Shown: piece by piece, positions 4,272 to 24,081 of the stretch
Position numbering within the stretch: the first letter of the stretch is position 1
Layout: every line of letters starts with the position of its first letter
Virus record (IMG/VR): IMGVR_UViG_3300017770_006394
Coordinates: 1 to 25,561 of that record
DNA from: a virus
DNA: 25,561 nt
Reading direction: 5' to 3' (one strand)
The notes under the pieces: model-generated
Database searches by the model: none
What the model was told of the DNA's origin: nothing
The model's input: only the letters and a program-made list of their open reading frames with translations
Position numbers and translations under genes: made by a program

Positions 4272-4291
4272 GGCTCCCGTAGGGAGCCTTT
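4272..4291 (+). terminator. Terminator hairpin fused to a promoter box
   Basis: Perfect seven-base stem GGCTCCC/GGGAGCC with loop GTA, followed by TTT. The same stem recurs at 12021-12037, and in both places the T run is also the first part of a TTTGTATATTTA box. Confidence 0.8.
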
Positions 4292-4322: not shown

Positions 4323-4829
4323 ATGTTATTTAATCCCCTTAATTCTAGGAAACAACTAGAAGTTAAATTTTCCAAACTTCAAAAACTAAACTACAACCAA
4401 TTTAGGTGGTGGCGTATGTATGATAACCCAAATAAACCTTTGGATAAATATCAACCTCTCCGTGACCGTATTTTAAATGGTGATTTTGAATATTCTCATT
4501 TCAAACCACAGGCAGAATGGTGTGAACATGAGATGAATGATGCTTGGGAAGAATGTTACCCTGATATAGGTAAATATAATGAAAAGACATCGATGTTACG
4601 TTCTAGAAGAAAACGTTTATTAGAAGATTTTGAAAAAGATGAATCTGAAAAATTACGACTCCTTACAAAAGGCTTTACAGATGATTTTAATATTACCCTA
4701 GAACAAGTTTATACAGAAATCGAAGGATGTTTTGGAGATATGATTGACCTTTATTATCTTATAGAAGATAAATACAGAAAAAAAATCAAATCCCCAACAC
4801 GTAGGGGACGACCAAAAAGAACTATTTAA
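4323..4829 (+). CDS. Unknown protein with basic AT-hook-like C-terminus
   Basis: This 168-residue protein is soluble and highly charged, with many Trp and Tyr in the first half (for example FRWWRMYDNP) and a probable helical region SMLRSRRKRLLEDFEKDESE in the middle. The last residues, TRRGRPKRTI (159-168), contain the RGRPKR core of an AT-hook, which can bind the minor groove of AT-rich DNA. I do not recognise a family. It is first in the unit that includes the DpdA-like gene, which starts 13 bases later, so a DNA-linked role is plausible, but that is inference. Confidence 0.6.
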   Translation: MLFNPLNSRKQLEVKFSKLQKLNYNQFRWWRMYDNPNKPLDKYQPLRDRILNGDFEYSHFKPQAEWCEHEMNDAWEECYPDIGKYNEKTSMLRSRRKRLLEDFEKDESEKLRLLTKGFTDDFNITLEQVYTEIEGCFGDMIDLYYLIEDKYRKKIKSPTRRGRPKRTI

Positions 4830-4842
4830 AAAAGTTATATAA

Positions 4843-5640
4843 ATGAAAGTATCACACGAAGTACCTAGATGTCTTTTAACATCCTCACCTGAATACAATG
4901 ATTACGACTATTGTCTTCCCCACCTATTAGATATAGATGAGGAATATAAACAATATTTTTACGAAGCTAAAAAATCAGGACGCTATGTTATTATGGATAA
5001 TAGTTTACATGAACTTGGTCAAGCATACGACCATAAACGTCTATTATACTGGATTAACGAATTAGAACCAGATGAATTCATGGTACCCGATGTCTGGATG
5101 GACTGCCATCAAACAGCGAACCAGGCTAAACATTGGTTGCAATATAAATTTCCTAAGAAAACTAAAAAAATAGCAGTAATTCAAGGTTCTAACAAAAATG
5201 AAGCATATTTATGTGCTGGTTTATTACGGGATTTAGGGTATGATAAGCTATGTGTATCCTATGGGGCAACTTGGTATAATGATTTCCTCCCTCATACAAA
5301 TGAGGACATGGGGAAGGCATTAGGGAGAGTAAGATTTGTACAAGGTTTACTAAAACTAAAACATCTAAAAGATACTAAATTCCATTTATTGGGGTGTGCT
5401 GTACCTCAGGAATTTGGGTGGTACGATAATAACCCAAGAATAGAATCCATTGACACATCAAACCCTATCATGGCTGCTTTAGAAGGTATAGTTTATACAC
5501 AAAGAGGTTTAACTGTTAAGCCTAAAGCAAATATGAATGATTTTTTTGATGTAAAAATTGAAGATATAGACTATAATAAAGTTACAGTAAATACTAATGT
5601 TTTTAGACTTATTAATGGTCTCAAACTTTTAAAATCCTAA
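4843..5640 (+). CDS. dpdA: DpdA-like DNA guanine transglycosylase (TGT family)
   Basis: The 265-residue protein follows the order of motifs of the tRNA-guanine transglycosylase barrel: MDNSLHELG at 51-59 (position of the DSGGFQ catalytic Asp, here Asp52), VPDVWMD at 81-87, a short VIQG at 112-115, HLLGCAVPQEFG at 181-192 (compare the LMGVGTPEDL strand), and IDTSNP at 203-208 (compare the catalytic D-x-x-x-P segment). It lacks the CxCxxC zinc site of tRNA TGTs and is shorter, as expected for phage DpdA proteins, which exchange guanine in DNA for a 7-deazaguanine base. The neighbours are queC, an amidotransferase, and further on queD, queE and folE2, all needed to make that base. Assignment as DpdA is by motif order and context, not by search. 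A tRNA substrate cannot be excluded. Confidence 0.75.
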   Translation: MKVSHEVPRCLLTSSPEYNDYDYCLPHLLDIDEEYKQYFYEAKKSGRYVIMDNSLHELGQAYDHKRLLYWINELEPDEFMVPDVWMDCHQTANQAKHWLQYKFPKKTKKIAVIQGSNKNEAYLCAGLLRDLGYDKLCVSYGATWYNDFLPHTNEDMGKALGRVRFVQGLLKLKHLKDTKFHLLGCAVPQEFGWYDNNPRIESIDTSNPIMAALEGIVYTQRGLTVKPKANMNDFFDVKIEDIDYNKVTVNTNVFRLINGLKLLKS

Positions 5641-5680
5641 CACATATTTTAGTAAAACCATTTGTGGTCTCTATAACTTA

Positions 5681-5690
5681 TTTGTATATT
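5681..5690 (+). promoter_or_regulatory. Candidate phage promoter box TTTGTATATT
   Basis: An exact match to TTYRTATATT lies in the 116-base gap before queC. It is 66 bases before the queC ATG at 5757 but 18 bases before an in-frame TTG at 5709, so this site either drives a longer leader or argues for the TTG start. Confidence 0.45.
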
Positions 5691-5756
5691 ACATAAAGTA
5701 AAACACGTTTGCCTATACGTAAAATACCAGGCACAATTTTAAAAAATATATTTCCA

Positions 5757-6497
5757 ATGGATTTAAACCAAGCATTAAACAATCTCCCAACTACTGACAA
5801 AAATGTACTAGCTGTACTATCAGGAGGATTAGATTCTTCTGTAATGACTATGATGTTAGTAGAAAAATATGGAGCTAAAAAGGTATCAGCTATTAGTTAT
5901 GATTACGGTCAAAAACAAAAAATAGAATTAGATAAAGCTTCAAATTTATGTAAAACCCTAGGTATTAGACATAAAGTAATTGATTTATCTATTTTAGGAG
6001 ATATAGCAAAACCTATGTCAGCTAATATAGGAGGTACAGATATAGAAATGCCTGATATTAAAGATGTTCTAGGGGATCCTCAACCACCAACATATGTTCC
6101 TTTTAGAAACATGATTCTATTATCTTTAACCATGTCCACAGCTGAAGTAGAAAATGCTTCCCACGTATTTACTGGTTTACAAGTCCATGATGAATACGGT
6201 TACTGGGATACTTCACAAAAATTTGTAGATAGCATCAATGCCGTTGCCTCTCAAAATAGAACCCATAAAGTAGAAATTGTAGCCCCATTTAGCCATTTAT
6301 CCAAAGCACAAGAAATAGAAATTTGTAGAGAAATGGGGAAAGTAGATTTACTAGAAAGTACTTTAACTTGTTATAACCCCAATAAAAAAGGAGAAAGTTG
6401 TGGGAAATGTCCATCATGTGCCGAAAGAATAATGAATTTTATGAAGGTAGGAATAAAAGACCCAATTCCTTACTCAATCGAAATCCCTTGGAATTAA
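5757..6497 (+). CDS. queC: QueC, 7-cyano-7-deazaguanine (preQ0) synthase
   Basis: QueC converts 7-carboxy-7-deazaguanine to the nitrile preQ0 with ATP and ammonia. The 246-residue protein has the PP-loop SGGLDSS at 22-28 near its N-terminus and the zinc-binding cluster Cys205, Cys215, Cys218 and Cys221 (CGKCPSC) near its C-terminus, as in the whole family, and normal family length. I chose ATG 5757 because it puts the PP-loop at the usual distance. A TTG at 5709 would add 16 residues and fits the spacing from the promoter box, so it remains possible. The amidotransferase gene starts one base after its stop, which suggests coupled translation and a shared pathway. Confidence 0.92.
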   Translation: MDLNQALNNLPTTDKNVLAVLSGGLDSSVMTMMLVEKYGAKKVSAISYDYGQKQKIELDKASNLCKTLGIRHKVIDLSILGDIAKPMSANIGGTDIEMPDIKDVLGDPQPPTYVPFRNMILLSLTMSTAEVENASHVFTGLQVHDEYGYWDTSQKFVDSINAVASQNRTHKVEIVAPFSHLSKAQEIEICREMGKVDLLESTLTCYNPNKKGESCGKCPSCAERIMNFMKVGIKDPIPYSIEIPWN

Positions 6498-6498
6498 T

Positions 6499-7143
6499 AT
6501 GTGTGCTATTGTAGGAAGTTTCGATAAAGATAAACTCAAGGAGTTAATCGAACTCAATTGTTATAGAGGAAACCATTCATATAGTATATCAGAGTACACA
6601 CTAAAAACAAAATCTCTATTTACTACAAGAGGGTTAGGGGATTTTCCATTTGAGATTTTAAAAGAACTTAAAGAGGGCAAATATTATATCGCTCATACTC
6701 AAGCCCCTACTACAGATGCAAAATCAACTAGTAATATCCATCCTCACAGGTTCAATAATGATTATATGCTTTGGCACAATGGAATTATTAAAGAATCCTT
6801 TGTTAAAAAAATGCAAAATCAACTTAATACAGCAGAAAAATGGGATACAGCTTTATTAAATGAGTGGGTATATAACAAATATGATCTGGGGGAAGTAGAT
6901 GGTACTTTTAGTTGTTTAAGGTTTGATAAAGGAAAGCTAATACTCTTCAGAAATGAAATATCCCCTATGTTTATAGATAAAGATTTTAATATTTCAAGTA
7001 CAAAATTTAAAAATTCAAACCCAACCCCCGCAGGTAAAGAACTTTATATGCGTTTTAACGTTAATTCAAAATCGGATATTGGGGTATTGGTTGAAATGGG
7101 TGAATTTAAAACAAAAGAAAATCCTTATTTCTTTTTAGAATAA
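6499..7143 (+). CDS. Class II glutamine amidotransferase, stand-alone partner of QueC
   Basis: The 214-residue protein begins MCAIVG, with Cys2 as the N-terminal nucleophile after Met removal. Other class II (GATase2/Ntn) signatures follow in order: YRG at 22-24, HTQAPT at 66-71, HNGII at 93-97 and Asp116, then GTFSCLRF at 135-142. Such domains release ammonia from glutamine in the cytoplasm. No synthetase domain is attached. In some archaea and phages a GAT domain fused to QueC (Gat-QueC) makes archaeosine-type bases from preQ0. Here the two parts are separate genes one base apart, so conversion of preQ0 to the formamidine base is the likely job. An ammonia supplier for QueC itself is the main alternative. 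Confidence 0.8.
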   Translation: MCAIVGSFDKDKLKELIELNCYRGNHSYSISEYTLKTKSLFTTRGLGDFPFEILKELKEGKYYIAHTQAPTTDAKSTSNIHPHRFNNDYMLWHNGIIKESFVKKMQNQLNTAEKWDTALLNEWVYNKYDLGEVDGTFSCLRFDKGKLILFRNEISPMFIDKDFNISSTKFKNSNPTPAGKELYMRFNVNSKSDIGVLVEMGEFKTKENPYFFLE

Positions 7144-7190
7144 ATTTGGTTACCTTAAATAACTTTATTATATTTAAATATATAAAAACC

Positions 7191-7276
7191 GCTCGAGTGG
7201 TGGAATTGGTAGACACGCTGGACTTAAAATCCAGTGGACTGTAAGGTCCGTATGGGTTCAAGTCCCATCTCGAGTA
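7191..7276 (+). tRNA. tRNA-Leu (anticodon UAA)
   Basis: Cloverleaf with acceptor GCTCGAG paired to CTCGAGT, anticodon loop CTTAAAA in a CTGGA/TCCAG stem, a long variable arm (TGGACTG...GGTCC) typical of Leu, T arm ATGGG TTCAAGT CCCAT, and discriminator A. CCA is not encoded. It reads UUA, the preferred Leu codon in AT-rich genes. Confidence 0.95.
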
Positions 7277-7281
7277 CAACT

Positions 7282-7353
7282 GGTCCGTTCGTCTAGGGGT
7301 TAGGACGCATGGTTTTCATCCATGTAACAGGGGTTCGATTCCCCTACGGACTA
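7282..7353 (+). tRNA. tRNA-Glu (anticodon UUC)
   Basis: Acceptor GGTCCGT pairs with ACGGACT (one G-U), the anticodon loop is TTTTCAT in a CATGG/CCATG stem, and the T arm is GGGG TTCGATT CCCC. It lies five bases after tRNA-Leu. CCA is not encoded. The sequence is close to Bacteroidota tRNA-Glu as I remember it. Confidence 0.95.
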
Positions 7354-7366
7354 CAAAAAACACATA

Positions 7367-7580
7367 ACGAGTAAGGGGTACTCGTGAGTCTTTGATTACA
7401 GACTTAAACAAGTAATTGAGTTTTAAAACAGCACCTCTTAAAAACTGTTTTCTTTGGAATAAAGCTAGGTAATAGAGGCTCCAAGTAATTTGACTAATTT
7501 CAAGAGGGTAAGACCCGCAGGTTTATTGAAAGAAAGAAAACCGATATATCTACATAACTAAATCTCGGTTATGGTTTTTT
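7367..7580 (+). ncRNA. Candidate structured non-coding RNA inside the tRNA array
   Basis: About 225 bases between tRNA-Glu and the next tRNA have no ORF but hold several perfect stems: ACGAGTA (7367-7373) with TACTCGT (7379-7385); AGTCT (7387) with AGACT (7400); AAAACAG (7425-7431) with CTGTTTT (7445-7451); GGGT/ACCC at 7506-7516; and AACCGA (7539) with TCGGTT (7565), the last followed by T6 at 7575-7580 like a terminator. CCTCTT (7434-7439), in the loop of the third stem, can pair with AAGAGG (7502-7507), which would make a pseudoknot. No known RNA family is recognised; it is not a tRNA, and I see no tmRNA tag or hammerhead core. It could also be spacer RNA used in processing. Confidence 0.35.
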
Positions 7581-7653
7581 GTCCCATAGCTCAGTTGGTT
7601 AGAGCATCTGACTCATAATCAGAGGGTCCTTGGTTCGAGACCAAGTGGGACAA
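7580..7653 (+). tRNA. tRNA with CAU anticodon (elongator Met or Ile2)
   Basis: Acceptor TGTCCCA pairs perfectly with TGGGACA, the anticodon loop is CTCATAA in a TCTGA/TCAGA stem, and the T arm is CTTGG TTCGAGA CCAAG with discriminator A. It is not an initiator type. The GACTCATAATC stem-loop resembles tRNA-Ile2, whose C34 is changed to lysidine so it reads AUA, a common codon here; sequence alone does not settle Met against Ile2. Its body is almost the same as the following tRNA-Asn. Confidence 0.9.
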
Positions 7654-7659
7654 CTAATT

Positions 7660-7733
7660 TCCTCCTTAGCTCAGTTGGTTAGAGCATCTGACTGTTAATC
7701 AGAGGGTCCTTGGTTCGAGCCCAAGAGGAGGAG
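7660..7733 (+). tRNA. tRNA-Asn (anticodon GUU)
   Basis: Acceptor TCCTCCT pairs with AGGAGGA, the anticodon loop is CTGTTAA in a TCTGA/TCAGA stem, and the T arm is CTTGG TTCGAGC CCAAG with discriminator G. It lies six bases after the CAU tRNA and shares its D arm, anticodon stem, variable loop and T stem, which points to local duplication. Confidence 0.94.
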
Positions 7734-7738
7734 CAAAT

Positions 7739-7809
7739 TGACCCATGGTGTAATGGTAGCACTCCGGTTTTTGGTATCGTCAGTCAAGGTTCGAGTCCTT
7801 GTGGGTCAA
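7739..7809 (+). tRNA. tRNA-Gln (anticodon UUG)
   Basis: Acceptor TGACCCA pairs with TGGGTCA, the anticodon loop is TTTTGGT, and the T arm is CAAGG TTCGAGT CCTTG with discriminator A. The anticodon stem CCGGT/ATCGT has a C-T mismatch at its outer pair and one G-U, weaker than usual, but every other part matches Bacteroidota tRNA-Gln. Confidence 0.92.
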
Positions 7810-7830
7810 CAAAATCTAAATTATATATTT

Positions 7831-7995
7831 ATGGGAAATCAAAAATTACCTGATGCTAGAAATCATCAAATTATTAGCTTTATTAAATCTGCTATCCGTA
7901 TTTTAGGTTATGGTACTTTATGGTTTAATTTGGACCTTGCAGTTATTTTACTTATATTTAGTGAAATAGTAGGTATAAAAGAAGAATTAGTTTAA
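7831..7995 (+). CDS. Small membrane protein, unknown function
   Basis: This 54-residue ORF (MGNQKLPDARNHQ...) starts 21 bases after tRNA-Gln. A longer frame reads back into the tRNA, so the ATG at 7831 is the only sensible start. Residues 16-47 form one or two short hydrophobic helices (SFIKSAIRILGYGTLW, then DLAVILLIFSEIVGI). A 9-of-10 match to the TTYRTATATT box touches the start codon. The function is unknown; the thioredoxin gene follows after 17 bases. Confidence 0.5.
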   Translation: MGNQKLPDARNHQIISFIKSAIRILGYGTLWFNLDLAVILLIFSEIVGIKEELV

Positions 7996-8012
7996 TTAAA
8001 AATAAATAAAAA

Positions 8013-8258
8013 ATGAGAAAAATCTTGTACTTTAGCGCAAAATGGTGCGGACCTTGTAAACAATTAGCCCCTATTATGGAATCTTTACAAGGAGAGATTA
8101 ATTATGAAAAAATTGATGTAGATTCAAATACCGAACTATCTACTAAATATGGTATCAGAAATATCCCTACTTTAATTTTAGTGGATAACGGTAATGTTAT
8201 AGATAAAAAAACAGGAATTCAATCAAAACAACAAATTTTAGATTTATATAATGGGTAA
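8013..8258 (+). CDS. Thioredoxin
   Basis: This 81-residue protein is short for a thioredoxin (usually about 105) but has the redox site WCGPC at 11-15 and the cis-Pro region RNIPTLILV at 50-58, so it has lost mainly N-terminal and loop sequence. It would reduce disulfides in the cytoplasm; phage thioredoxin-like proteins often serve ribonucleotide reductase. Its last eight bases overlap queD (ATGGGTAA), so it is translationally coupled to the deazaguanine genes. No reductase gene is seen in the window. Confidence 0.9.
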   Translation: MRKILYFSAKWCGPCKQLAPIMESLQGEINYEKIDVDSNTELSTKYGIRNIPTLILVDNGNVIDKKTGIQSKQQILDLYNG

Positions 8259-8718
8259 ATTTCAATCAAGTAAAGTATTTGATGGTTTCAGTACTGTATT
8301 CCGTCAATGGAGAGCAAAAGACACACATTGTAGTTATTTACATGGTTATGGTATTTCTTTTAAAGTTTACTTTGAAGGTAAATTAGATGAACGTAATTGG
8401 GTTTGGGATTTTGGTGGAATGAAACGTGCCAAAACCTTAATTGATGGTTTCCAACCAAAAGAATGGATGGACCATATGTTTGACCATACTCTAATCTTAG
8501 CCGAAGATGACCCATTCTTAAAAGCATTCTCAGAAATGGGAGATGCTAAAGTAGCACAAGTAAGAGTAATACCAGCTACAGGGGCTGAAAGTTTTGCCAA
8601 ATATATTTTTGAAAAATTGAACCCGTTTGTCCAAGAAGAAACTAAAGGACGTGTCAAAGTAGTTAAAGTAAAATTTATGGAGCATGGCAAAAATGCTGCT
8701 TATTACATAGGGAATTAG
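8251..8718 (+). CDS. queD: QueD, 6-carboxy-tetrahydropterin synthase, divergent type
   Basis: QueD turns dihydroneopterin triphosphate into 6-carboxytetrahydropterin, the second step to preQ0. The 155-residue protein matches a QueD/PTPS subgroup that I recall by the block FRQWRAKDTHCSYLHGYG (residues 17-34), with catalytic Cys27 and His31, WDFGGMK at 52-58, FDHT at 77-80 and the Glu at GAES (112). The classical zinc motif is HGH with an earlier FSAAH; here the last His is Tyr33 and the first is replaced, so metal binding must differ. It overlaps the thioredoxin gene by eight bases and lies 48 bases before queE. Confidence 0.85.
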   Translation: MGKFQSSKVFDGFSTVFRQWRAKDTHCSYLHGYGISFKVYFEGKLDERNWVWDFGGMKRAKTLIDGFQPKEWMDHMFDHTLILAEDDPFLKAFSEMGDAKVAQVRVIPATGAESFAKYIFEKLNPFVQEETKGRVKVVKVKFMEHGKNAAYYIGN

Positions 8719-8766
8719 AACAATGATTAATAAAAGTGAGTAAAAAACCACTCTAAAAAATTAAAA

Positions 8767-9555
8767 ATGGAACACAAAAAATTAAAACGTATTGAGGATT
8801 ACGATAAGATCCTCCCAATTGTAGAAATATACACTTGTGTACAAAGTGAAGGAAGCCGTGCTGGTTACCCGACAATTTGCGTTAGAACTACAGGATGTAC
8901 CCACAGATGTTATTTCGGTGAAGGTGGGTGGTGCGACAGTTGGTATACTTCAATTCACCCTGATAAGGGACAATTTACATTCAATGACATAGTTGAAATG
9001 TATAAAGCAAACCCACACATTAAAGAAATGATGTTAACTGGAGGTTCACCTACTATGCATGGTTCTCTAGTTAATGAATTAACCCATTTTGCACATGAAA
9101 ATGATATTTTTATTACTATCGAAACTGAGGGGAGTCATTTCCTCGCCACTGACTATCCTATTCACTTGTTATCTATTAGTCCTAAGTTTTCTAATTCTGT
9201 TCCAGTCCTTGGCGTAGAAACACCTCAGGGGGCTATTACCGACCAAAAAATGATTGATAGACATAACAAATTTAGACTTAAATACGAAACTATAGCTGAA
9301 TCTATCTCTTACCACTCAGATTACCATTTAAAACCTGTTTGGGATGGAGAAAATAAGGAATCATTACAAGAAATCTTGAATTTTATTAAGGTAATGGATA
9401 TTCCTCAAGATAAAGTATGGTTTATGCCTGCGGGTGATTCGAGAGAATCTTTATTTCAATCCTATCCTTTAGTATTTGATTGGGTTAGAGATAATGGTTA
9501 TAGAATGACTTGGAGACCACACATTATAGCCTTTGAAGACCAAAGAGAAGTATAA
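8767..9555 (+). CDS. queE: QueE, 7-carboxy-7-deazaguanine synthase (radical SAM)
   Basis: QueE contracts the pterin ring to 7-carboxy-7-deazaguanine using a 4Fe-4S cluster and S-adenosylmethionine. In this 262-residue protein, IYTCVQSEGSRAGYPTICVR (21-40) is the substrate-binding region with the family's Q-x-E-G signature. The cluster Cys are 44, 48 and 56, spaced CX3CX7C, with five more residues than the usual CX3CX2C. LTGGSPTMH near residue 100 and the SISPKFSN segment near 150 are also family features. It lies between queD and folE2, with no terminator between them. Confidence 0.9.
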   Translation: MEHKKLKRIEDYDKILPIVEIYTCVQSEGSRAGYPTICVRTTGCTHRCYFGEGGWCDSWYTSIHPDKGQFTFNDIVEMYKANPHIKEMMLTGGSPTMHGSLVNELTHFAHENDIFITIETEGSHFLATDYPIHLLSISPKFSNSVPVLGVETPQGAITDQKMIDRHNKFRLKYETIAESISYHSDYHLKPVWDGENKESLQEILNFIKVMDIPQDKVWFMPAGDSRESLFQSYPLVFDWVRDNGYRMTWRPHIIAFEDQREV

Positions 9556-9629
9556 TAAAAGTTTAAAAAATAAATTAGGATATTAATAGTAAATTCATTA
9601 TATTACAATAAATCAAAACAAATAAAATT

Positions 9630-10649
9630 ATGTCAGAAAAAACAAGCTACGAGTGGCTAGATGAATCAACCACTAACCCTAACATTATCCCTTATGATAT
9701 GAAAGAGGGTACTTTATCTTCAACATTAGATAGAAGCTATGATAATAACTTTAAAGCTACCGAAGAATATAAAGCATCCATGGGAGATTTACAAAATGGG
9801 GCTTCATCTAATATTCAAGGTAGCCATACAAAAATCCAACAGGTTGGAATACATAACTTTAAACTACCCCTAAAGTTTAAGAAAAAAGATGGGGATACTA
9901 TAGAACTAGAAACCTCAGTAACAGGTACTGTATCTTTAGAAGCTGAGAAGAAAGGTATTAATATGTCTCGTATTGTGAGATCATTTTATGAATATAAGGA
10001 TCAAGTATTCTCAATTGATCTATTAGAAGATATTCTGGGTGCCTACAGAGATAAATTAGGTTCTTATGATGCTCATATAATCCTTAATTTTAGCTTTCCT
10101 ATTATTCAACCTTCTCTAAGAAGTGGGTTAGAAGGATACCAATATTACAATGTGTCTTTAGAGGCTAACCATAAACAAGATGGTACTCTAAAAAAATACA
10201 TCCACTTTGATTTTGTATACTCTTCAGCATGTCCTTGTTCTTTTGAATTAGCGATGCAAGCAATGGAAGAAAGAAATAAAGCTATAGTATCTCATTCACA
10301 AAGATCAAAAACACGTTTGACAATTGAGTTTGAAGATATGGTTTGGATTGAGGATCTAAGAGATATGTGTATTGATGCTTTACAAACAGAAACACAAGTT
10401 ATGGTGAAACGTGAAGATGAACAAGCTTTCGCTGAACTAAATGGTTCTAATCTTAAATTTGTAGAAGATGCAGCACGTTTAATTCATGAAAGGTTAAGTG
10501 AAAATGATAAGATATTAGATTTTAAAATTATCTGTTCCCACTTAGAATCTCTCCACTCCCATGATGCTATATCAGTTTTAGTTAAAGGTGTTGACGAAGG
10601 GTTAACAGCTGATGTACCCGTTGAAGTTTATAGAAGTTTAGTTTGTTAA
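9630..10649 (+). CDS. folE2: FolE2, GTP cyclohydrolase IB
   Basis: GTP cyclohydrolase makes 7,8-dihydroneopterin triphosphate, the entry compound of the preQ0 route. The 339-residue protein has the COG1469/FolE2 signatures: QQVGIHNFKLPL (70-81), KKGINMSR (107-114; the usual form is HMSR, here Asn111), SSACPCSFELA (198-208) with the metal-binding Cys, LKFVEDAARL (275-284), and SLHSHDA (307-313). This type, unlike FolE1, can work with metals other than zinc. About 40 residues at the N-terminus are extra and unrecognised. It completes FolE2-QueD-QueE-QueC in one genome, so the phage need not rely on host GTP cyclohydrolase. Confidence 0.92.
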   Translation: MSEKTSYEWLDESTTNPNIIPYDMKEGTLSSTLDRSYDNNFKATEEYKASMGDLQNGASSNIQGSHTKIQQVGIHNFKLPLKFKKKDGDTIELETSVTGTVSLEAEKKGINMSRIVRSFYEYKDQVFSIDLLEDILGAYRDKLGSYDAHIILNFSFPIIQPSLRSGLEGYQYYNVSLEANHKQDGTLKKYIHFDFVYSSACPCSFELAMQAMEERNKAIVSHSQRSKTRLTIEFEDMVWIEDLRDMCIDALQTETQVMVKREDEQAFAELNGSNLKFVEDAARLIHERLSENDKILDFKIICSHLESLHSHDAISVLVKGVDEGLTADVPVEVYRSLVC

Positions 10650-10679
10650 TATTAATACAAAAAAATTAGAAAGTACACA

Positions 10680-11078
10680 ATGTTAAAAATAGAAAATAAA
10701 TTATTTGTATCCTGGAGTGATGTTAGAACAACAATTAACATTTTATGTAAAAAAATCGCAACTGAATTACCTAATATCGATTCAGTAATTGGTTTAGAAC
10801 GAGGAGGATTAATACCCGCAGTTATGGTATCCCATGAATTGAATTTACCTTATTCTAAGGTTATCCTCCCTAATACTCTGGTAATAGATGATATATGTGA
10901 TAGTGGGGTTACTTTAAAAAATACAGTTGGAGTTTATACTGCGGCTTTGTATCATAAACCCCACACTTCATGTTTTACCCCCAGTCTCTATTCTAAATTA
11001 CATAAAGGAAATGAATGGCTTATTTTTCCTTGGGAAAGAAATGATAGTGAAGAAATGCAAGATTATTTAAATAAATAA
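10680..11078 (+). CDS. Short Gpt-like purine phosphoribosyltransferase
   Basis: The 132-residue protein has the type I phosphoribosyltransferase PRPP loop TLVIDDICDSGVTL (66-79) and an upstream SVIGLERGGLIPA (35-47), as in bacterial xanthine-guanine phosphoribosyltransferase. The C-terminal NEWLIFPWERND recalls the W-x-x-x-PW end of Gpt. It lacks much of the hood loop between these motifs. Family members join PRPP to a purine or pyrimidine base. Next to deazaguanine genes it might salvage guanine, xanthine or the displaced base, but the substrate is not deducible from the sequence. Confidence 0.8.
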   Translation: MLKIENKLFVSWSDVRTTINILCKKIATELPNIDSVIGLERGGLIPAVMVSHELNLPYSKVILPNTLVIDDICDSGVTLKNTVGVYTAALYHKPHTSCFTPSLYSKLHKGNEWLIFPWERNDSEEMQDYLNK

Positions 11079-11085
11079 AAATAAA

Positions 11086-11238
11086 ATGAACGAAGAAGCA
11101 GTAAAAGAGTATGTGTATAGTAAATACAAACAATTCAAAAATAAAACCATAACAATAGTTGAAAGAGATTCTACATTAGAAATCACTTCAGGTAAAGATG
11201 AATCTCCTTTGATTCTATCAAAAAATATTTTAAATTAA
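11086..11238 (+). CDS. Small unknown protein, 50 residues
   Basis: An ATG eight bases after the phosphoribosyltransferase stop opens a 50-residue frame (MNEEAVKEYVYSKYKQF..., ending LILSKNILN). It is charged, with a probable N-terminal helix then a TITIV strand. It fills the gap between two well-supported genes with the same spacing as its neighbours, which is the main support. No family is recognised. Confidence 0.5.
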   Translation: MNEEAVKEYVYSKYKQFKNKTITIVERDSTLEITSGKDESPLILSKNILN

Positions 11239-11254
11239 TTAAAAATTATATATT

Positions 11255-11452
11255 ATGAATTATTGGCAAGTAGATGTAAAGTTAACAATTGAACAAGATA
11301 GTGGTAAAATCCAAAAAGTAACAGAAAAATATCTAGTAGAAGCACATTCTCCTACAGACGCTGAAGCTAAGGTGTACAAAGATTTTGAAGGTGAAAGTAA
11401 TTTTACAGTAGATAAAATAGTAAAGACAAAAATTATAAAGATTATAGAATAA
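11255..11452 (+). CDS. DUF4494-like small protein
   Basis: The 65-residue protein fits the pattern of DUF4494 as I remember it from Bacteroidota: an N-terminal WxxDVK strand, KVTEKYLVEAHSPTDAEAKV (21-40, compare YLVDALSFTEAEAR), and NFTVDKIVKTKI near the end. The function of the family is unknown. Its presence supports a Bacteroidota host, from which the gene was probably taken. The stop overlaps the next start (TAATG). Confidence 0.7.
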   Translation: MNYWQVDVKLTIEQDSGKIQKVTEKYLVEAHSPTDAEAKVYKDFEGESNFTVDKIVKTKIIKIIE

Positions 11453-12006
11453 TGGGAGAACAACTAGAATTATTCTCAGAGGAAAACATGAATGTTAATG
11501 GAGTTCCATTTATAGATGAGGTAGAAACCTTTAATAAAACATTTGGTAAACCTAATAACTATGAACCAACAATCCCTGAAAAAAAAGAATGGGAATTTGT
11601 TTATGATTTTGGTCATGAAGAACTTGAGGAATACAAGGAAGCATGTGAGTCTGGAAATATTATAGAAATCCTAGATGCTATATGTGATATTGCCTATGTT
11701 ACCTTAGGAAATGCTTCTATGCTCCATGGTCTTAAAGATAAAGTATGGCCCGCGTATCAGGAAGTTCAAGCTTCAAATATGTCTAAATCTTGTAAAACTG
11801 AAGATGAGGCTATTGAAACTGTATCTGTTAGGAGTAAGGAACAAAATGAAAAATGTCATTACGAAAAAGTAGATGATGTTTGGGTTGTGTATCGTACTAG
11901 AGATAGAAAAGTCATGAAATCTGTCAATTACTTCAGACCAGACTTGTCCCAATTCTTTACCCAAAAAGAACTACAAAAATTCCATACAGCTTCTTTAGGA
12001 ATATAA
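11452..12006 (+). CDS. MazG/HisE-type nucleotide pyrophosphohydrolase-like protein
   Basis: The 184-residue protein has the all-alpha NTP pyrophosphohydrolase pattern: HEELEEYKEA (55-64) with the EExxE metal site, then ILDAICDIAYVTLG (73-86) with the DxxxD of the second metal helix, and VQASNMSKSC (105-114), a block I associate with the HisE/PRA-PH-like group in phages. These enzymes split (d)NTPs to monophosphates and could remove unmodified or non-canonical nucleotides. The C-terminal 60 residues (HYEKVDDVWVVYRTRDRKV) are probably a small beta-hairpin extension. It ends the unit that starts with folE2; a terminator follows. Confidence 0.75.
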   Translation: MGEQLELFSEENMNVNGVPFIDEVETFNKTFGKPNNYEPTIPEKKEWEFVYDFGHEELEEYKEACESGNIIEILDAICDIAYVTLGNASMLHGLKDKVWPAYQEVQASNMSKSCKTEDEAIETVSVRSKEQNEKCHYEKVDDVWVVYRTRDRKVMKSVNYFRPDLSQFFTQKELQKFHTASLGI

Positions 12007-12019
12007 AAACAAAAAACTT

Positions 12020-12040
12020 AGGCTCCCACAGGGAGCCTTT
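12020..12040 (+). terminator. Terminator hairpin fused to a promoter box
   Basis: Stem GGCTCCC/GGGAGCC with loop ACA, then TTT. It has the same stem as 4272-4288, and the 29-base block reaching through TTTGTATATTTA differs from the first copy at only two loop bases. Confidence 0.8.
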
Positions 12041-12070: not shown

Positions 12071-13813
12071 ATGTCATACAAAAAGTGTTACTTAGGGAAA
12101 AAGTTAGGAAGCAATTATTTTGAAATTCATCTTTGGGAAAGTGATGGAGAACACCAAATTATTCCCTATAATAATGTAGCGTACCAAGAATGTAGTGAAG
12201 AAGAACATTCTTTTGTAGGTCTAAATGGTGAATATTTAAAACCCACAAATAATTGGTTCTTTTCAAAAAACCCCAACTATAGAAGCAAGAACACCCCAGG
12301 ATTACATTTTCATGATATGAAACCTCACCAAAAATTCCTTATTGAAAGATATGGGGTAAATGATGTTCCTTCTAAAGGACATAGAGAGGTATTTTTTGAT
12401 ATAGAATGTGAAATTGGAGGGGCATTAACTGAAGATTATATTGCTAGTGCACCAATGCCTATTACTTCAATAGCTTGGTGGGATAAAACCCCAGATACTT
12501 GGCATATCCTAATCTTAGACAAAAAAGGTGAACTCAAACATACACCAGGAGAAAAAGAAATAATTCCTGTATCAACAGAACGTGAACTTCTAGCTAAATT
12601 TGTAGAGGCATTCCGGGATATGAATCCTGATATTCTTGTAGGGTACAACTCGGATTATTTTGATATTCCTTATTTGTATCATAGAATATGTAATGTTTTA
12701 GGTAAAGAATGGGCTGATCATCTTTCTCCAATTGGTGAAGTTAAAACTAAAAAATATGATAAATACTTTTTTAAACAAAATCAATTTGTAGATATTGTAG
12801 GTGTTGAATCCCTTGATTATATTCGTTTACACAAAAAATATAGTTGGAAAGATGAACCTAGTTGGAAATTAGATGCTATTGGTGAAAAATATGTTGGAAT
12901 GGGGAAAGTTGAATATGAAGGAAATCTTGATCAACTGTTTGCTACTGACATTCATAAATTTATCCAATACAACTTTGTTGATGTTGAAATTTTACAAAAA
13001 CTAGATGAAAAACTCCAATATATAGCACTCACAAAAAACCTATCACATAAAGGAAAACATAACTATAGTGAAGTTTACCACAATAGTGTAACCCAAGATG
13101 GAGCAATTTCAGCATATTTGTTATCCCAAAACCTAATACCTCCACCTAAAGAAATGAACCAACAAAAGAAAGATGGATACGCAGGTGGGTATTTATTTTG
13201 TCCAAAAGCGGGGTTATACAAATATATGTTTGATGAGGATTTAACTTCATTGTATCCTTCTATTATTATGACTATTAATATAGGTAAAGAAACATTTGTA
13301 GGGCGTATTATAGATGCTGATGATCGTAATAATAGATTAGGCCTTAATGATTTAATCGAAAAAGACCCAAATGAGGAGCTATTAGTAGAAAATCCTAAGG
13401 GTATGCAAACTAGAGTAACTGCAAAACAACTAGTTGATATAATTAAATCTTCCAATTTAGCAGTAGCGGCTAATGGTTCAATGTTTAGAACAGATAAAGA
13501 ATCAGTACTATCAACTATTTTGAAAAAATGGTTTGAAGAACGAGTTTTATACAAAGGACGTATGAAAAAAGCATACAAATCAGGAGATAAAGAAAAAGGC
13601 GAATATAATCATTTAATGCAATATACAATGAAAATTTTGTTAAATTCATTATATGGTGCTACTGCTCTCCCCTCTTTTCGCTATGGTATGAATTATGCAA
13701 TATTGAGTGAAGCAATTACATTATCAGGTCACAGAATTATTCAAGAATCCGCTCTATGTGCTAATCGTCACATGAACGAGGTACTTAGAGGTAACATAAA
13801 ATTAGAAATATAA
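12071..13813 (+). CDS. DNA polymerase B family, N-terminal part (43A-like)
   Basis: This 580-residue protein carries the N-terminal, 3'-5' exonuclease and palm/fingers parts of a T4 gp43-like replicative polymerase. Exo I is FFDIECE (108-114), Exo II is VGYNSDYFDIPY (190-201), Exo III is YNFVDVEIL (300-308), motif A is DEDLTSLYPSI (388-398) and motif B is KILLNSLYGA (521-530). It ends about 50 residues after motif B, before motif C, so it cannot be active alone; motif C is in the gene at 14077. The stop overlaps the start of the 86-residue ORF (TAATG). Both parts must assemble into one enzyme, as in T4-like phages with separate 43A and 43B genes. Confidence 0.92.
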   Translation: MSYKKCYLGKKLGSNYFEIHLWESDGEHQIIPYNNVAYQECSEEEHSFVGLNGEYLKPTNNWFFSKNPNYRSKNTPGLHFHDMKPHQKFLIERYGVNDVPSKGHREVFFDIECEIGGALTEDYIASAPMPITSIAWWDKTPDTWHILILDKKGELKHTPGEKEIIPVSTERELLAKFVEAFRDMNPDILVGYNSDYFDIPYLYHRICNVLGKEWADHLSPIGEVKTKKYDKYFFKQNQFVDIVGVESLDYIRLHKKYSWKDEPSWKLDAIGEKYVGMGKVEYEGNLDQLFATDIHKFIQYNFVDVEILQKLDEKLQYIALTKNLSHKGKHNYSEVYHNSVTQDGAISAYLLSQNLIPPPKEMNQQKKDGYAGGYLFCPKAGLYKYMFDEDLTSLYPSIIMTINIGKETFVGRIIDADDRNNRLGLNDLIEKDPNEELLVENPKGMQTRVTAKQLVDIIKSSNLAVAANGSMFRTDKESVLSTILKKWFEERVLYKGRMKKAYKSGDKEKGEYNHLMQYTMKILLNSLYGATALPSFRYGMNYAILSEAITLSGHRIIQESALCANRHMNEVLRGNIKLEI

Positions 13814-14073
13814 TGGCATTAAAGAAACAATCAATTAGAAGTACAATGACCATTTTGGTTGAAGGTGTAGAGATTCCAAAAGATGAATTAATAACTTTAA
13901 GTGAATCTTGGTCCGAACAACAGGAGTCTTTTTTTAGAAAAATGCTTAAACAAGGTGGGAAATTTAAAGTAAAGGGTTTACCTTTCGAAATAAGATTAAA
14001 AGAACAGATACTAACCTCTAAAGGGGAAAAAGACGGAGGAATCCAACAAATCCCAGGAGAGAAAACATTTTAG
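13813..14073 (+). CDS. Unknown 86-residue protein between the polymerase halves
   Basis: The ORF is joined to the upstream polymerase gene by TAATG and stops three bases before the downstream one, so all three are translated from one message. It is soluble and basic, with LSESWSEQQESFFRKMLKQ (29-47) as a likely helix and GGKFKVKGLPFEIRL (48-62) as a likely beta-hairpin. I see no GIY-YIG, HNH or LAGLIDADG motif, so it is not a plain homing endonuclease. It is not polymerase sequence either: the two halves join without loss when it is removed. It could be a partner that holds the halves together, or an ordinary small gene caught in the rearrangement. Confidence 0.6.
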   Translation: MALKKQSIRSTMTILVEGVEIPKDELITLSESWSEQQESFFRKMLKQGGKFKVKGLPFEIRLKEQILTSKGEKDGGIQQIPGEKTF

Positions 14074-14076
14074 TAT

Positions 14077-15012
14077 ATGAAACATTTACAAGAAACACCA
14101 TGGTGGATTTGTGATGCAGAGGATGAAAATTACTGTGCATATGTAGACACCGATTCTAATTATTTTAATGCTGAACCTATTTTACTTCATTTGTACCCCA
14201 ATTTTGAAGAATTTAGTGATGGAGAAAAAGATGATATTCTAGAAAAAGTAGCACTTAAATATCAGGATATTATTACTGACCATTATGACTCTTTATCCAA
14301 GGAATGTTTTAATGCTCCTGAACACAGACTCGAAATGAAGACAGAGTGCGTTATACGTTCAGCATATTTTAGAAATACCAGACGTTACGCCCAATGGATT
14401 ACTAAACAAGAAGGTATTGCTAAAGAGACCTTAGATATTAAGGGTTTAGAATTCATGAAAGCAAATTTCCCACCTATCCTAGGAGCATTTTTCAATGACA
14501 TTTTACAGCAGGTTTTAAAGGGTGGAGAAAAGGAAAACATTTTGGAACAAATCAAAACCTTTAAACATCAAATCCTAAGTGGGGAAATTCCTTTAGCAAA
14601 ATTAGGTAACCCTACAGCTGTAAAAAAATTACAAAAATATTCTGGTACTAGTGCTAGGGCAGGAGAAATGTTTACTGAAATATTAAAAGGAGCCCCAGCT
14701 CCGGTTCGTGCCGCTATTAGATATAATGACTTACTAAGATTGTGGGGTCTAGATAAAAAACATAATTATATTACACAAGCTGATAAAGTTAAATGGATAT
14801 ATGTTAAAGATAACCCATACAAAATAGAAGCATTAGCCTTTTTTGATTATGATGTCCCAGAAAAAATCCAAAATTTCTTAGATGTATATGCAGATAGGCA
14901 AAAAGTATTTGAATCAATTCTATTAAATAAATTAGAGGGGTTTCATAATGATCTAGGTTGGTCTCTTGATTTAAACCCTTATGTAAATGCTCTTAAGTCC
15001 TTTGAAATATAA
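14077..15012 (+). CDS. DNA polymerase B family, C-terminal part (43B-like)
   Basis: This 311-residue protein starts just before motif C (YVDTDS, 22-27), which holds the palm Asp residues, and continues through DIKGLEFMKA (compare KIMGLE of RB69 polymerase), the thumb and PAPVRAAIRYNDLL (compare HIRGILTYNRAI), to an RB69-like end (LLNKLEGFHNDL...). Together with the upstream part it gives about 890 residues, normal for gp43. The first ~20 residues look like true polymerase sequence, so the break is clean. It acts with the clamp encoded 37 bases downstream. Activity requires association with the 43A-like part. Confidence 0.92.
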   Translation: MKHLQETPWWICDAEDENYCAYVDTDSNYFNAEPILLHLYPNFEEFSDGEKDDILEKVALKYQDIITDHYDSLSKECFNAPEHRLEMKTECVIRSAYFRNTRRYAQWITKQEGIAKETLDIKGLEFMKANFPPILGAFFNDILQQVLKGGEKENILEQIKTFKHQILSGEIPLAKLGNPTAVKKLQKYSGTSARAGEMFTEILKGAPAPVRAAIRYNDLLRLWGLDKKHNYITQADKVKWIYVKDNPYKIEALAFFDYDVPEKIQNFLDVYADRQKVFESILLNKLEGFHNDLGWSLDLNPYVNALKSFEI

Positions 15013-16709: not shown

Positions 16710-17055
16710 CGCCGTTATTGTAAAACCGATTGAACCCGAAGAAACTACTTTTGGTAATATTATCGTACCTGATCTAGGAAAAGAAAAAAATGAATTCGGT
16801 GAAGTAGTAGCCGTAGGTCCTGGACAACCTACCCAAATGGGGAATTTCATAGAAACTATCCTAAAAGTAGGAGACAAAGTAGTATTACCTACTATGGGAT
16901 TCACAAAACTTCCATACGATGGTGAAGAATATTATGTAGGACCTGAAAATCAAATTTTAGCTAAAATATGCTCAACACTTGAGGTATCAGATCTATTAGA
17001 AGAAACAAAAGAATCATTAACACAAGAAGAAATTAAAGCTATATCAAATGAGTAA
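16687..17055 (+). CDS. groES: GroES co-chaperonin
   Basis: The 122-residue protein matches GroES from the start: [25 protein letters not shown] (residues 5-29) is the family's N-terminal signature, then [22 protein letters not shown] and the Cpn10 end ENQILAKI. About 25 extra acidic residues follow ([22 protein letters not shown]), beyond the usual ~95. The mobile loop is around residues 18-30. It would cap the chaperonin ring. It overlaps the preceding gene by 23 bases and groEL by eight, showing tight coupling with groEL. Confidence 0.92.
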
Positions 17056-17365
17056 ACAAATCAAATTAGGTTCAGAAGCAAGAACCCAACTAGTAAAAGG
17101 TATTGATCTTTTGGCAAATGCTGTTGTATCAACTTTAGGTCCTAACGGGAGAAATGTTGTTATTTCTAATCCTCAAGGAGTACCTCAATCAACAAAAGAT
17201 GGAGTTACAGTTGCTAAATCTATCACATTATCAGACCCAGAACAAGAGTTAGGAGCACAATTGGTAAAACAGGCTGCGATTAAAACAGCAGAAAAAGCAG
17301 GTGATGGTACAACAACATCTACCCTATTGGCCCGAGAGATGATTAAAGCGGGTTTGAATGCTTAA
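17048..17365 (+). CDS. GroEL N-terminal fragment (105 residues)
   Basis: This is the part of groEL before the in-frame stop. It contains the ATP-binding loops of the equatorial domain ([21 protein letters not shown]) but not the intermediate or apical domains, so it cannot work as a chaperonin by itself. It overlaps groES by eight bases. Confidence 0.75.
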
Positions 17366-17557
17366 AACAATAATGAAAGCGCGGTACAGATTAAACGTGA
17401 TATTGATGCTACAGTTAAAACAGTTGTTAAAAACCTTAAAGATAATATTGCAGAAGATATTGTTGCTGAGGAACAATTAGAACAAGTAGCAACCATCTCA
17501 GCAAATAACGACCCTGAAGTTGGAAAACTAATTGCAACCGCTATTGATAAAGTAGGG

Positions 17558-18670
17558 ATGGAAGGTGTTGTCCATATTGAAGAATCACGAACCGGAGAAA
17601 CATATCTAGAAACAGTAGAAGGATTACAATTTGATAGAGGATATAAATCCCCTTATTTTGTAACAAACAATACTACTATGACCGCTACTCTAGATAACCC
17701 ACTTGTTTTAATTTCAGACCAGAAAATTACTCAAGTTAAAGAATTACTCCCAATTCTAGAAGCAGTATCAAACCAAGCAAAATCTTTACTAATCATTGCT
17801 GAAGATATTGATCAGGAAGCATTAGCAACCTTGATTGTAAATAAGATGAGAGGTACAATGAATGTTTGTGCTGTTAAATCCCCAGAATTTGGAGATAGAA
17901 GAAAATTGGTACTTGATGATATCGCTATTACTACTGGTGGTCAAGTTTTCAGTAAAGATAAAGGTATGAAACTTGATAAATTCAGCTGGGAATGGTTTGG
18001 TGAAGCACGAACAGTAACTGTTGAAAAAGAACAAACAACAATTGTTGATGGTAAGGGAGATGTAGATGCAATCGAAAAGCGTATTGATGAACTTCAAACC
18101 CAAATTAATAAAGCTCAAACTCCTTTTGAAATTGAAAAGTTGCAAGAACGTTTAGCTAAATTTGTTGGGGGAGTTGCTATTATCCACGTAGGAGGAAATA
18201 CCGAAACGGAAATGAAAGAGAAAAAAGATAGAGTAGATGATGCTTTACATGCTACAAAGGCAGCAATTGAAGAAGGTATTGTACCCGGAGGAGGAATAGC
18301 ATTACTATATGCATCTTCAGGTATAGAAGCTGAAACTACTGGTGCACAAATTGTTAAACAAGCATGTGCTAAACCATTTAATCAAATTTTAGTTAATGCT
18401 GGTTTTAACGATGTTAAAGGTCAAATCCTAGCAGACAGTTTAATCAATTCAGGTAATGATACTTGGGCTGGGTATAACATTAAAACTGGTGAAACGGTTA
18501 ATATGAAAGAAGCTGGAATCATCGATCCTACAAAAGTATCTCGTACAGCGTTACAAAATGCAGCCTCAGTTGCGGGTACAGTATTACTTACAGAATGTAC
18601 TGTAGTAGATGAACCAAGCGAAGATAATAACCCACCACAAATGGACCCTATGATGGGTATGGGAATGTAA
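17558..18670 (+). CDS. GroEL C-terminal fragment (370 residues)
   Basis: If translation restarts after the stop, the first good in-frame ATG is at 17558 ([20 protein letters not shown]), at position 171 of the full protein. From there the apical domain, intermediate hinge ([23 protein letters not shown]) and C-terminal equatorial half follow. The 64 codons between the stop and this ATG also read as GroEL, which shows that the break is one codon only. Confidence 0.75.
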
Positions 18671-22629: not shown

Positions 22630-24069
22630 ATGAATAAAAGTTTTGAACATCTCCCTAAAGATAAAAGGAAGAAAATACTATTAATATGTGATGATATTAG
22701 AGTACATTCTGGTGTTGCAACTGTAGCAAAAGAAATTGTAGTACATACGGCTCATCATTTTAATTGGGTTAATTTAGGAGGGGCCATTAAACACCCTGAA
22801 TCTGGAAAAAGAATAGATTTAAGCCCAAATACGAATGAAATTCTAAATATAAAAGATTCATCCATAACTTTATACCCAACCTCGGGGTATGGAGACCCTA
22901 CAATCTTAAGACAATTATTGGAAATCGAAAAACCAGATGCTATAATGTTAATTACAGATCCAAGGTATTTCACATACATTTTCAATATGGAACAAGAAAT
23001 CAGGAAAAAAATCCCAATTACTTACTTAAACATTTGGGACGATTATCCAGCACCAATGTATAATAGACCTTACTATGAGGCTTGTGATTTATTGATGGGA
23101 ATTTCTAAACAAACGGTTAATATTAATAAATTAGTTTTAGAAAACCGTGAAGGTAATAGAATATTTAAATATGTACCCCATGGTTTAAATTCTGATATTT
23201 ATTTTCCTATGCCTTGGGAAGATGAAAAATTTATTGATTTTAAAAAGAAAATTTTAGGCACTTCAAATCCTAAATTTGTATTATTTTTCAATTCTAGAAA
23301 TATTAGAAGAAAACAAATCCCTGATGCTATACTAGCTTTCAAACACTTCTTAGATCAATTACCTAAAGAAGAATCAAAAGAATGTTATATGGTTCTCCAT
23401 ACAGAATTAGTATCGGACCATGGTACAGATTTATCAAAAGTAGTAGAATATTTCTTAGGTGAAGAATATGAGAATAATGTTAAATTTTCTTTAAATAAAT
23501 TACCACAAAATGAGTTGAATTATCTGTATAATATGGCTGATGCTCAAATTTTATTAACTTCTAATGAAGGGTGGGGACTTACACTTACTGAAGCTCTTTT
23601 AACAGGTACTCCTATTATTGCGAATACAACAGGAGGTATGCAAGACCAAATGAGATTTGTTGATGAAAATGGAGAATGGTTTACACCAAGTGCTGACATC
23701 CCTTCTAATCATAGGGGTACATACAAAGAACACGGTGAATGGGCTTTCCCAGTTTACCCTACTTCAAGATCTATTCAAGGTTCACCTGCAACACCTTATA
23801 TCTATGATGACAGATGTAGATGGGAAGATGCTTCTGAAAGAATAAAAGAAGTATATGACCTAGACCCCGAAGAAAGAAAGCAAAGAGGTTTAAAAGGTAG
23901 AGAATGGGCTATTAGCAAAGAAGCAGGTTTCACATCAAAACACCAGGCAGATAGAGTTATGAAAGCTTTTAATGAGCTATTTGATATTTGGGAACCTAGA
24001 GAAAAATATGAAATTCATAATGCTACCGAGTACCGAGGAAAATTTTTAAACCACAAATTAATTTACTAA
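22630..24069 (+). CDS. GT-B glycosyltransferase (GT4-like), first of a pair
   Basis: The 479-residue protein has a Rossmann start KKILLICDDIRVHSGVA (14-30) and the GT4-type donor-binding block SNEGWGLTLTEALLTGTPIIANTTGG (about 310-335; compare E-x-FG-x-x-x-x-E). NIRRKQIPDAILAFKHFL in the middle is the usual start of the second domain. The last ~100 residues carry an unusual insertion (YPTSRSIQGSPATPYIYDD). It would transfer a sugar from a nucleotide donor in the cytoplasm. The target might be phage DNA, a virion protein or host glycan; no sugar synthesis gene is visible here. Confidence 0.88.
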   Translation: MNKSFEHLPKDKRKKILLICDDIRVHSGVATVAKEIVVHTAHHFNWVNLGGAIKHPESGKRIDLSPNTNEILNIKDSSITLYPTSGYGDPTILRQLLEIEKPDAIMLITDPRYFTYIFNMEQEIRKKIPITYLNIWDDYPAPMYNRPYYEACDLLMGISKQTVNINKLVLENREGNRIFKYVPHGLNSDIYFPMPWEDEKFIDFKKKILGTSNPKFVLFFNSRNIRRKQIPDAILAFKHFLDQLPKEESKECYMVLHTELVSDHGTDLSKVVEYFLGEEYENNVKFSLNKLPQNELNYLYNMADAQILLTSNEGWGLTLTEALLTGTPIIANTTGGMQDQMRFVDENGEWFTPSADIPSNHRGTYKEHGEWAFPVYPTSRSIQGSPATPYIYDDRCRWEDASERIKEVYDLDPEERKQRGLKGREWAISKEAGFTSKHQADRVMKAFNELFDIWEPREKYEIHNATEYRGKFLNHKLIY

Positions 24070-24081
24070 AAAGTTATAAAC

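Follow-up and report, generated by a model that had tools for sequence, protein, structure and literature searches.

Could a virus of marine flavobacteria make a 7-deazaguanine base for its own DNA and, if so, which base would it be and how would its supply be set? The question is raised by the window, as we call the whole stretch analysed here: a linear fragment of 25,561 bases from the IMG/VR virus record IMGVR_UViG_3300017770_006394, with a GC content of 29-36% per kilobase, which probably derives from such a marine virus. Between positions 4843 and 10649, the initial annotation had placed a complete pathway from guanosine triphosphate (GTP) to 7-cyano-7-deazaguanine (preQ0), together with a protein resembling the transglycosylase DpdA. 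Searches with hidden Markov models and protein families confirm FolE2, QueD, QueE and QueC there, all with strong scores (Table 1), and the protein beside them has the fold of tRNA-guanine transglycosylases (TGT). The prediction of 7-deazaguanine DNA is supported, because the family models, the confident TGT-fold model, the nearest isolates and the constant co-occurrence of these genes in more than 100 related contigs all point to it. A pathway of this type joined to DpdA is a known kind of phage system, to which the window adds a member with a novel combination of parts.

The DpdA-like protein matches phrog_19058 (E 1.4e-48) and no Pfam family, and a sequence-only profile search of the PDB returned nothing informative. 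The AlphaFold2 model, built on an alignment of 33 relatives (predicted local distance difference test score, pLDDT, 92.5; predicted template modelling score 0.88), lies inside the TGT fold, whereas a fold outside it would have refuted the proposal by the standard of the initial annotation. In a Foldseek comparison with the PDB, the first two ranks are TGT enzymes (6YGL, E 1.8e-7) and the third is the solved DpdA 7UI4 (E 7.7e-7). D52 (MDNSLHELG), D83 and D204 (SIDTSNP) are invariant in the 33 sequences and follow the TGT motif order, by which alone, and not by superposition of active sites, they are equated with the acid/base and the nucleophile of TGT. The protein has no space for the zinc extension of TGT. 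By tblastn, its nearest homologues among isolates are those of CP220, a Campylobacter phage (E 3e-45; 98% of the query covered at 38.5% identity), and of the Flavobacterium phage immuto (E 6e-46; 34% identity), where the protein is annotated as DNA guanine transglycosylase; both phages are annotated for, or shown to have, 7-deazaguanine DNA. The type that groups with CP220 and immuto is presumably the subfamily named DpdA3 (Cui et al. 2023). In the window and its relatives alike, the preQ0 synthesis genes are linked to dpdA, and insertion of a 7-deazaguanine into DNA is the predicted activity.

We consider it quite probable that the cassette spanning 4323-12006 works as a whole in this way: FolE2, QueD, QueE and QueC would convert GTP to preQ0, and the small DpdA would exchange it for guanine in the phage DNA. 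The DNA would thereby carry a 7-deazaguanine, perhaps at a high level, since the nearest characterised DpdA homologue is that of CP220, in which 2'-deoxy-7-amido-7-deazaguanosine (dADG) replaces 100% of deoxyguanosine (dG) (cited in PMC8306585). The expected outcome is phage DNA resistant to host nucleases. We regard it as very improbable that the cassette instead boosts queuosine in host or phage tRNA. An array of tRNA genes does lie within the cassette and includes a Q-type anticodon, that of tRNA-Asn(GUU), and such a role has been proposed for phages without DpdA (PMC6884629). However, this cassette is anchored by a DpdA-type transglycosylase whose nearest relatives belong to phages that modify their DNA or are so annotated, neither QueF, QueA nor QueG was found, and the partner protein with an AT-hook points to DNA.

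A gene that bears on the identity of the final base was overlooked in the initial annotation. A class II glutamine amidotransferase gene (GAT) starts 1 nucleotide (nt) past the end of queC. Its predicted structure (pLDDT 92.2) matches the glutaminase domains of GlmS and PurF with E values of about 1e-9, and 40 homologues without exception keep C2, the oxyanion motif H93-N94-G95 (HNG) and D116. QueC itself (PF06508, E 1.9e-52) is a PP-loop ATPase with the C-terminal zinc Cys4 motif CYNPNKKGESCGKCPSC and is 63% identical to QueC of Vibrio phage 2.275.O. The two genes are tightly coupled: QueC lies upstream on the same strand in 77 of 80 IMG/VR homologues of GAT, with a median overlap of 1 nt, and QueF is present as well at 55 of these 80 loci. 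In the window they are separate neighbours, not fused as in archaeosine synthases of the Gat-QueC type. BLAST and profile comparisons reveal no significant similarity to the Gat of phage 9g, and by sequence GAT belongs to a different subfamily.

GAT may hydrolyse glutamine and pass the ammonia to QueC, whose product would be preQ0. A role as ammonia supplier is likelier than one as archaeosine synthase, and delivery of preQ0 by GAT and QueC is suggested because QueF, which needs preQ0 as its substrate, sits at so many GAT loci. The sequence does not decide the final base, of which preQ0 is the most likely and archaeosine the main rival. Unless a gene outside the fragment alters it, we lean slightly toward 2'-deoxy-preQ0 (dPreQ0). 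That GAT converts preQ0 to archaeosine, like the Gat half of Gat-QueC in 9g and the Crenarchaeota, so that the DNA would hold 2'-deoxyarchaeosine (dG+), appears unlikely to us. This alternative draws on a class II amidotransferase coupled to QueC, on the dG+ formed by Gat-QueC and DpdA of 9g (PMC6884629) and on the lack of QueF in the window and its large relatives. It is opposed by the different GAT subfamily with its conserved Arg replaced by Gln, by the joint presence of GAT and QueF, and by close relatives and immuto, which manage without GAT. In addition, among the bases measured in phage nt-1, which has a QueC and GAT pair, dPreQ0 predominates at a low level, with dG+ no more than a trace (PMC6884629, Table 2). 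Given its frequent occurrence together with QueF and its dissimilarity to 9g Gat, GAT was rejected as proof of dG+.

Several observations weigh against our interpretation of the pathway and its product. The glutamine-site Arg present in GlmS (R73) and 9g is replaced by Gln (Q68) in 40 of 40 GAT sequences; because this Arg binds the glutamine carboxylate, glutaminase activity of GAT is only predicted. The Gat-QueC of 9g yields dG+, so a GAT beside QueC could do so too (PMC6884629). The window is a fragment, beyond which a later base-modifying enzyme could lie. Finally, many of the related contigs represent one lineage, and their co-occurrence counts are therefore not independent. The absence of QueF noted initially holds for this 25.6-kilobase (kb) fragment of a genome; none was found in ten related contigs of 48-139 kb either, in a search that recovered two positive controls. 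At contig L090 and about 30 GAT loci, the order is dpdA, formyltransferase, a thymidylate kinase-like gene, queF, queC and GAT, which suggests formylated 7-aminomethyl-7-deazaguanine (preQ1) as the end product of those phages.

The QueC and GAT pair is a replacement within a conserved cassette. About eighty IMG/VR contigs encode a DpdA 52-84% identical to that of the window in mostly the same gene order, which is kept in dozens of related contigs. Where their queC slot is covered, it holds a divergent QueC without the zinc Cys4 motif, save in the near-identical contig L008. The motif is found in 0 of 60 divergent QueCs vs 80 of 81 canonical, mostly GAT-linked ones. A second set of loci, found via another gene, gives the same picture. 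As the maximum-likelihood tree of DpdA (midpoint root only) nests the window among kin with zinc-less QueC, the comparison indicates that the window lineage has exchanged its QueC for a QueC-GAT pair; among isolates, Vibrio phage 2.275.O has the pair closest to the incoming one. The two types of QueC seem to be interchangeable, because immuto, which has QueF and a formyltransferase, works with a zinc-less QueC and no GAT. The QueC lineage lacking the motif (L020 and most relatives) includes this QueC of immuto (L169), a QueF phage. Zinc-less QueC as a mark of dADG phages was rejected, as the QueC of CP220, a dADG phage, has the zinc motif.

What did not change with the enzyme is an element of about 30 nt between dpdA and queC, some 20 nt before queC. 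The bases forming it in the window recur ahead of the relatives' divergent QueC, so it was retained though the enzyme behind it was exchanged. The true start of queC is most likely ATG 5757 and not TTG 5709, because homologues start there and the TTG sits inside this conserved RNA leader. From all searches, including the motif scan, we pooled 138 unique queC leaders of the lineage (135 with zinc-less QueC, 3 canonical). The strict element is present in 120 of the 138, and most of the other 18 carry it with compensating changes. It is absent from 55 QueC leaders of other, mostly GAT-bearing, phages.

The element has a constant place ahead of queC. A pattern-only scan of IMG/VR returned at least 119 stretches with the motif. 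Among the matches listed, 114 copies were read together with the gene downstream, and 108 of them lie 18-40 nt (median 20) ahead of the zinc-less QueC; of the remaining 6, one is cut off inside QueC, two have an intervening ORF (open reading frame) and three seem to be chance. Of 20 matches in 84,980 bacterial and archaeal genomes, only 3 are real, and all of these precede a QueC of the same phage type. Searched with a covariance model, phage genomes of up to 177 kb, that of the cultured immuto included, contain a single strong copy or a single tandem pair, a frequency on which the idea of a general phage promoter was rejected; the model detects no element in CP220, phi19:2 or nt-1. Contig L016 carries two tandem pseudoknots, of the GCGU and GGAU types, before one queC, the first at 9704. 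In L290 and L342 an extra ORF (HNH-like in L342) stands between element and queC, and in L290 a second, fully compensated copy (AGGUU/AACCU, ACUCC/GGAGU) directly precedes queC.

The leader folds as an H-type pseudoknot that covaries in both helices. P1 occurs as GCGU/ACGC, ACGU/ACGU, UGGAU/AUCCA, CGGAU/AUCCG, AGGAU/AUCCU and AGGUU/AACCU. Pairs were counted in rows of one loop geometry only, since a MAFFT alignment of all types misaligned P1; in 24 such rows the four core pairs are always formed and three of them vary on both sides. Of all cells, 88% pair, vs 19-38% when the strands are slid, and natural leader halves form at least 4 base pairs in 101 of 102 cases, vs 41% for chimeras. P2 is mostly GCC/GGC, elsewhere CCC/GGG or UCC/GGA, with the extended forms ACCC/GGGU, UCCC/GGGA and ACUCC/GGAGU; its covariation rests on few sequences, and kinship among the rows is only partly controlled. 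In some relatives the 3'-terminal part of dpdA supplies the 5' strand of P1 through Asn-Gly codons (AAY GGA), and there the outer P1 pair tracks the wobble base, AAT going with AUCCA and AAC with AUCCG. A conserved coding stretch was rejected as the cause of conservation, because the spacer changes by single bases (1-5 nt); moreover, the number of open frames is not constant, and the frame of the relatives meets a stop codon in the window copy. Minimum-free-energy folding gives no significant z-score, but the method is blind to pseudoknots and was not used as support.

The leader may control translation of queC, perhaps by sensing a metabolite of the pathway. Like the preQ1-I riboswitches (RF00522), it is a roughly 30-nt H-type pseudoknot with an A-rich third loop, upstream of queC and near the start codon. 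The specificity base of preQ1-I riboswitches is a C directly before the 3' strand of P1 (PMC11625349), whereas the leader elements have U there in 121 of 121 unique elements. For this reason, and because Rfam gives no match (for RF00522 none up to E 10 with the window stretch or E 1 with five loci), we do not class the leader as preQ1-I. It might, as we tentatively propose, form a riboswitch class of its own, or represent the preQ1-I fold with altered specificity, and sense a 7-deazaguanine-pathway metabolite throughout a lineage of marine flavophages. The main alternative, to which we give an even chance, is an operator to which a protein binds (QueC or a repressor of the phage, for instance), or else a signal for RNA processing or stability. 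The ligand of a metabolite switch is hypothetical, the size and position of the element would suit a translational operator, and the element is kept when the QueC type changes. That same retention before non-orthologous QueC types speaks against autogenous binding by QueC, and topology and gene context are those of preQ1-I riboswitches. If the leader is a metabolite switch, it would set the supply of a base destined for phage DNA, and would have stayed in place while the enzyme under its control was replaced by the QueC-GAT of an unrelated lineage.

The remaining genes fit into one conserved unit. The initial annotation had the tRNA array split the genes into two transcripts, a view that the terminators do not support: a hairpin followed by a T-run occurs twice in the window, vs 0.02 expected by chance, and the two copies flank orf4323 to mazG exactly. 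No convincing terminator lies between them on the + strand, and because of this the cassette is probably one transcription unit; the call rests on terminators, as promoters are not resolvable. The same hairpin stands at the mazG/polB junction in contigs L010, L012, L016, L030 and L058. The earlier list of parts was likewise incomplete, lacking, besides GAT and the leader RNA, the phosphoribosyltransferase, the AT-hook protein, thioredoxin and MazG, which also lie within the conserved unit. In the folE2 slot most relatives have FolE, with FolE2 again in contigs L045, L056, L058, L236 and L241; FolE2 of the window has only remote homologues among isolate phages.

Two accessory genes may be tied to the action of DpdA. 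The AT-hook protein orf4323 would help DpdA hold AT-rich DNA. A [KR]GRP motif stands near the C-terminus in 59 of 73 homologues, and R-G-R-P is invariant in a 16-row alignment. dpdA is present at all 43 of the 43 orf4323 loci with more than 2.5 kb of downstream sequence, and the two genes often touch or overlap. In several loci orf2378 is relocated and orf4323 is still with the cassette. No isolate phage matches orf4323, even at E 0.1. The Gpt-type phosphoribosyltransferase probably recycles the guanine released by DpdA, turning it into guanosine monophosphate and so closing the loop to GTP. Its homologues in the isolate collection amount to 12 records, 11 of which are preQ0-pathway phages (4 immuto, 5 Cellulophaga phiST-type and 2 Brevundimonas phages that have FolE and QueE in the neighbourhood); the twelfth is a fragment of 4 kb. 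One could also imagine that this enzyme charges preQ0 itself and leaves the triphosphate to kinases, MazG and the split polymerase, the modified base thus entering as a nucleotide. The constancy of phosphoribosyltransferase and MazG in the cassette, the shorter distance between purine and PRPP (phosphoribosyl pyrophosphate) motifs than in XGPRT and the full substitution of CP220 DNA would suit such a route. We think it hardly probable, as it is unnecessary given DpdA, no nucleoside kinase or ribonucleotide reductase is seen in the window, and the enzyme shares its purine-site motif, W..PW, with guanine/xanthine enzymes.

The phages with preQ0/DpdA pathways described by Hutinet et al. 2019 (CAjan and Rosebush with dPreQ0, 9g with dG+; PMC6884629) share the same four synthesis steps and DpdA in a phage cluster. 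Unlike them, the window has FolE2 for FolE, a split QueC and GAT, the leader RNA, the AT-hook protein and the phosphoribosyltransferase, and its small DpdA of the CP220/immuto type has no detectable sequence similarity to 9g DpdA. Immuto (vB_FspM_immuto, Immutovirus) is 70% identical in QueD, 78% in QueE, 72% in MazG, 53% in the phosphoribosyltransferase and 34% in DpdA; it too has GroES/GroEL nearby and the same leader RNA before its queC. In contrast to the window, it carries QueF and a formyltransferase beside DpdA, FolE instead of FolE2, and its GAT-less queC elsewhere in the genome. In CP220, QueC is about 46 kb from dpdA. The pairs of KVP40, nt-1 and 2.275.O (Vibrio) and pf16 (Pseudomonas) have the same order and nearly overlapping genes as the window, with 35-44% identity in GAT and 50-63% in QueC, whereas nt-1 and pf16 have DpdA2. 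Cellulophaga phage phi19:2 encodes, close to QueD, QueE and FolE, a protein listed as hypothetical (gp042, L004 15288-16067) that is weakly related to DpdA (47 bits, 21% identity); a search found no QueC in this phage.

Table 1. Features of the cassette and its borders, in window coordinates.
Feature	Position	Strand	Description
Terminator-like hairpin	4272-4288	+	GGCTCCC-GTA-GGGAGCC + T-run; upstream cassette border
orf4323	4323-4829	+	168 aa, conserved protein with C-terminal AT-hook (RGRP); adjoins dpdA
dpdA	4843-5640	+	265 aa, predicted TGT-fold DNA guanine transglycosylase, CP220/immuto type without zinc-domain extension
queC leader RNA	5705-5733	+	H-type pseudoknot; P1 5705-5708/5717-5720, P2 5710-5714/5729-5733
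queC	5757-6497	+	Canonical zinc-motif QueC; ORF called from TTG 5709 (5709-6497)
GAT	6499-7143	+	Class II (N-terminal Cys) glutamine amidotransferase; phrog_12378, E 9e-44
tRNA array	7191-7810	+	Leu(UAA), Glu(UUC), Met(CAU), Asn(GUU), Gln(UUG)
Thioredoxin	8013-8258	+	Conserved in relatives' cassettes
queD	8251-8718	+	6-carboxytetrahydropterin synthase; PTPS E 1.3e-15, phrog QueD E 3e-40
queE	8767-9555	+	Radical-SAM 7-carboxy-7-deazaguanine synthase; phrog QueE E 3e-52
folE2	9630-10649	+	GTP cyclohydrolase IB; NF010200 E 1.5e-79, above curated cut-off
Phosphoribosyltransferase	10680-11078	+	Gpt-type, 6-oxopurine; DDxxD PRPP motif and W..PW purine motif conserved; PDB relatives Gpt/XGPRT
Small conserved ORF	11255-11452	+	Immuto homologue annotated DUF4494
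MazG-like	11452-12006	+	Nucleotide pyrophosphohydrolase; family matches; conserved in relatives
Terminator-like hairpin	12020-12038	+	Same hairpin as 4272-4288; downstream cassette border

Outside the cassette, a family B DNA polymerase is encoded in two genes (12071-15012); an 86-aa ORF (13813-14073) separates its N-terminal part from motif C (YVDTDS). The polymerase is also split in relatives such as L017, L026, L055 and L066, and homologues of the small ORF occur near queC too, in L011, L018, L073 and L085. In GroEL (17048-18670), one in-frame stop, where the 17048-17365 ORF ends, interrupts a frame that is otherwise open on both sides; the stop could be real or an artefact of sequencing or assembly. 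Two adjacent large glycosyltransferase-like proteins occupy 22630-25392, with a weak Pfam match for 24082-25392.

7-Deazaguanine DNA is known from phages, but to our knowledge there is no account of how the supply of the base is metered or of what becomes of the guanine released by DpdA. For both, the cassette supplies candidates that can be tested: the structured leader RNA, present once per genome and always ahead of queC, and a Gpt-type enzyme that occurs in isolate phages almost only alongside the preQ0 pathway. The link between the AT-hook protein and dpdA hints at how a DpdA of minimal size might work across AT-rich DNA. To a specialist, the leader RNA and the accessory parts would come as a surprise. 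The RNA element, DpdA and the phosphoribosyltransferase are all present in immuto, which is in culture on Flavobacterium sp. LMO8, so that the role of the RNA can be tested now.

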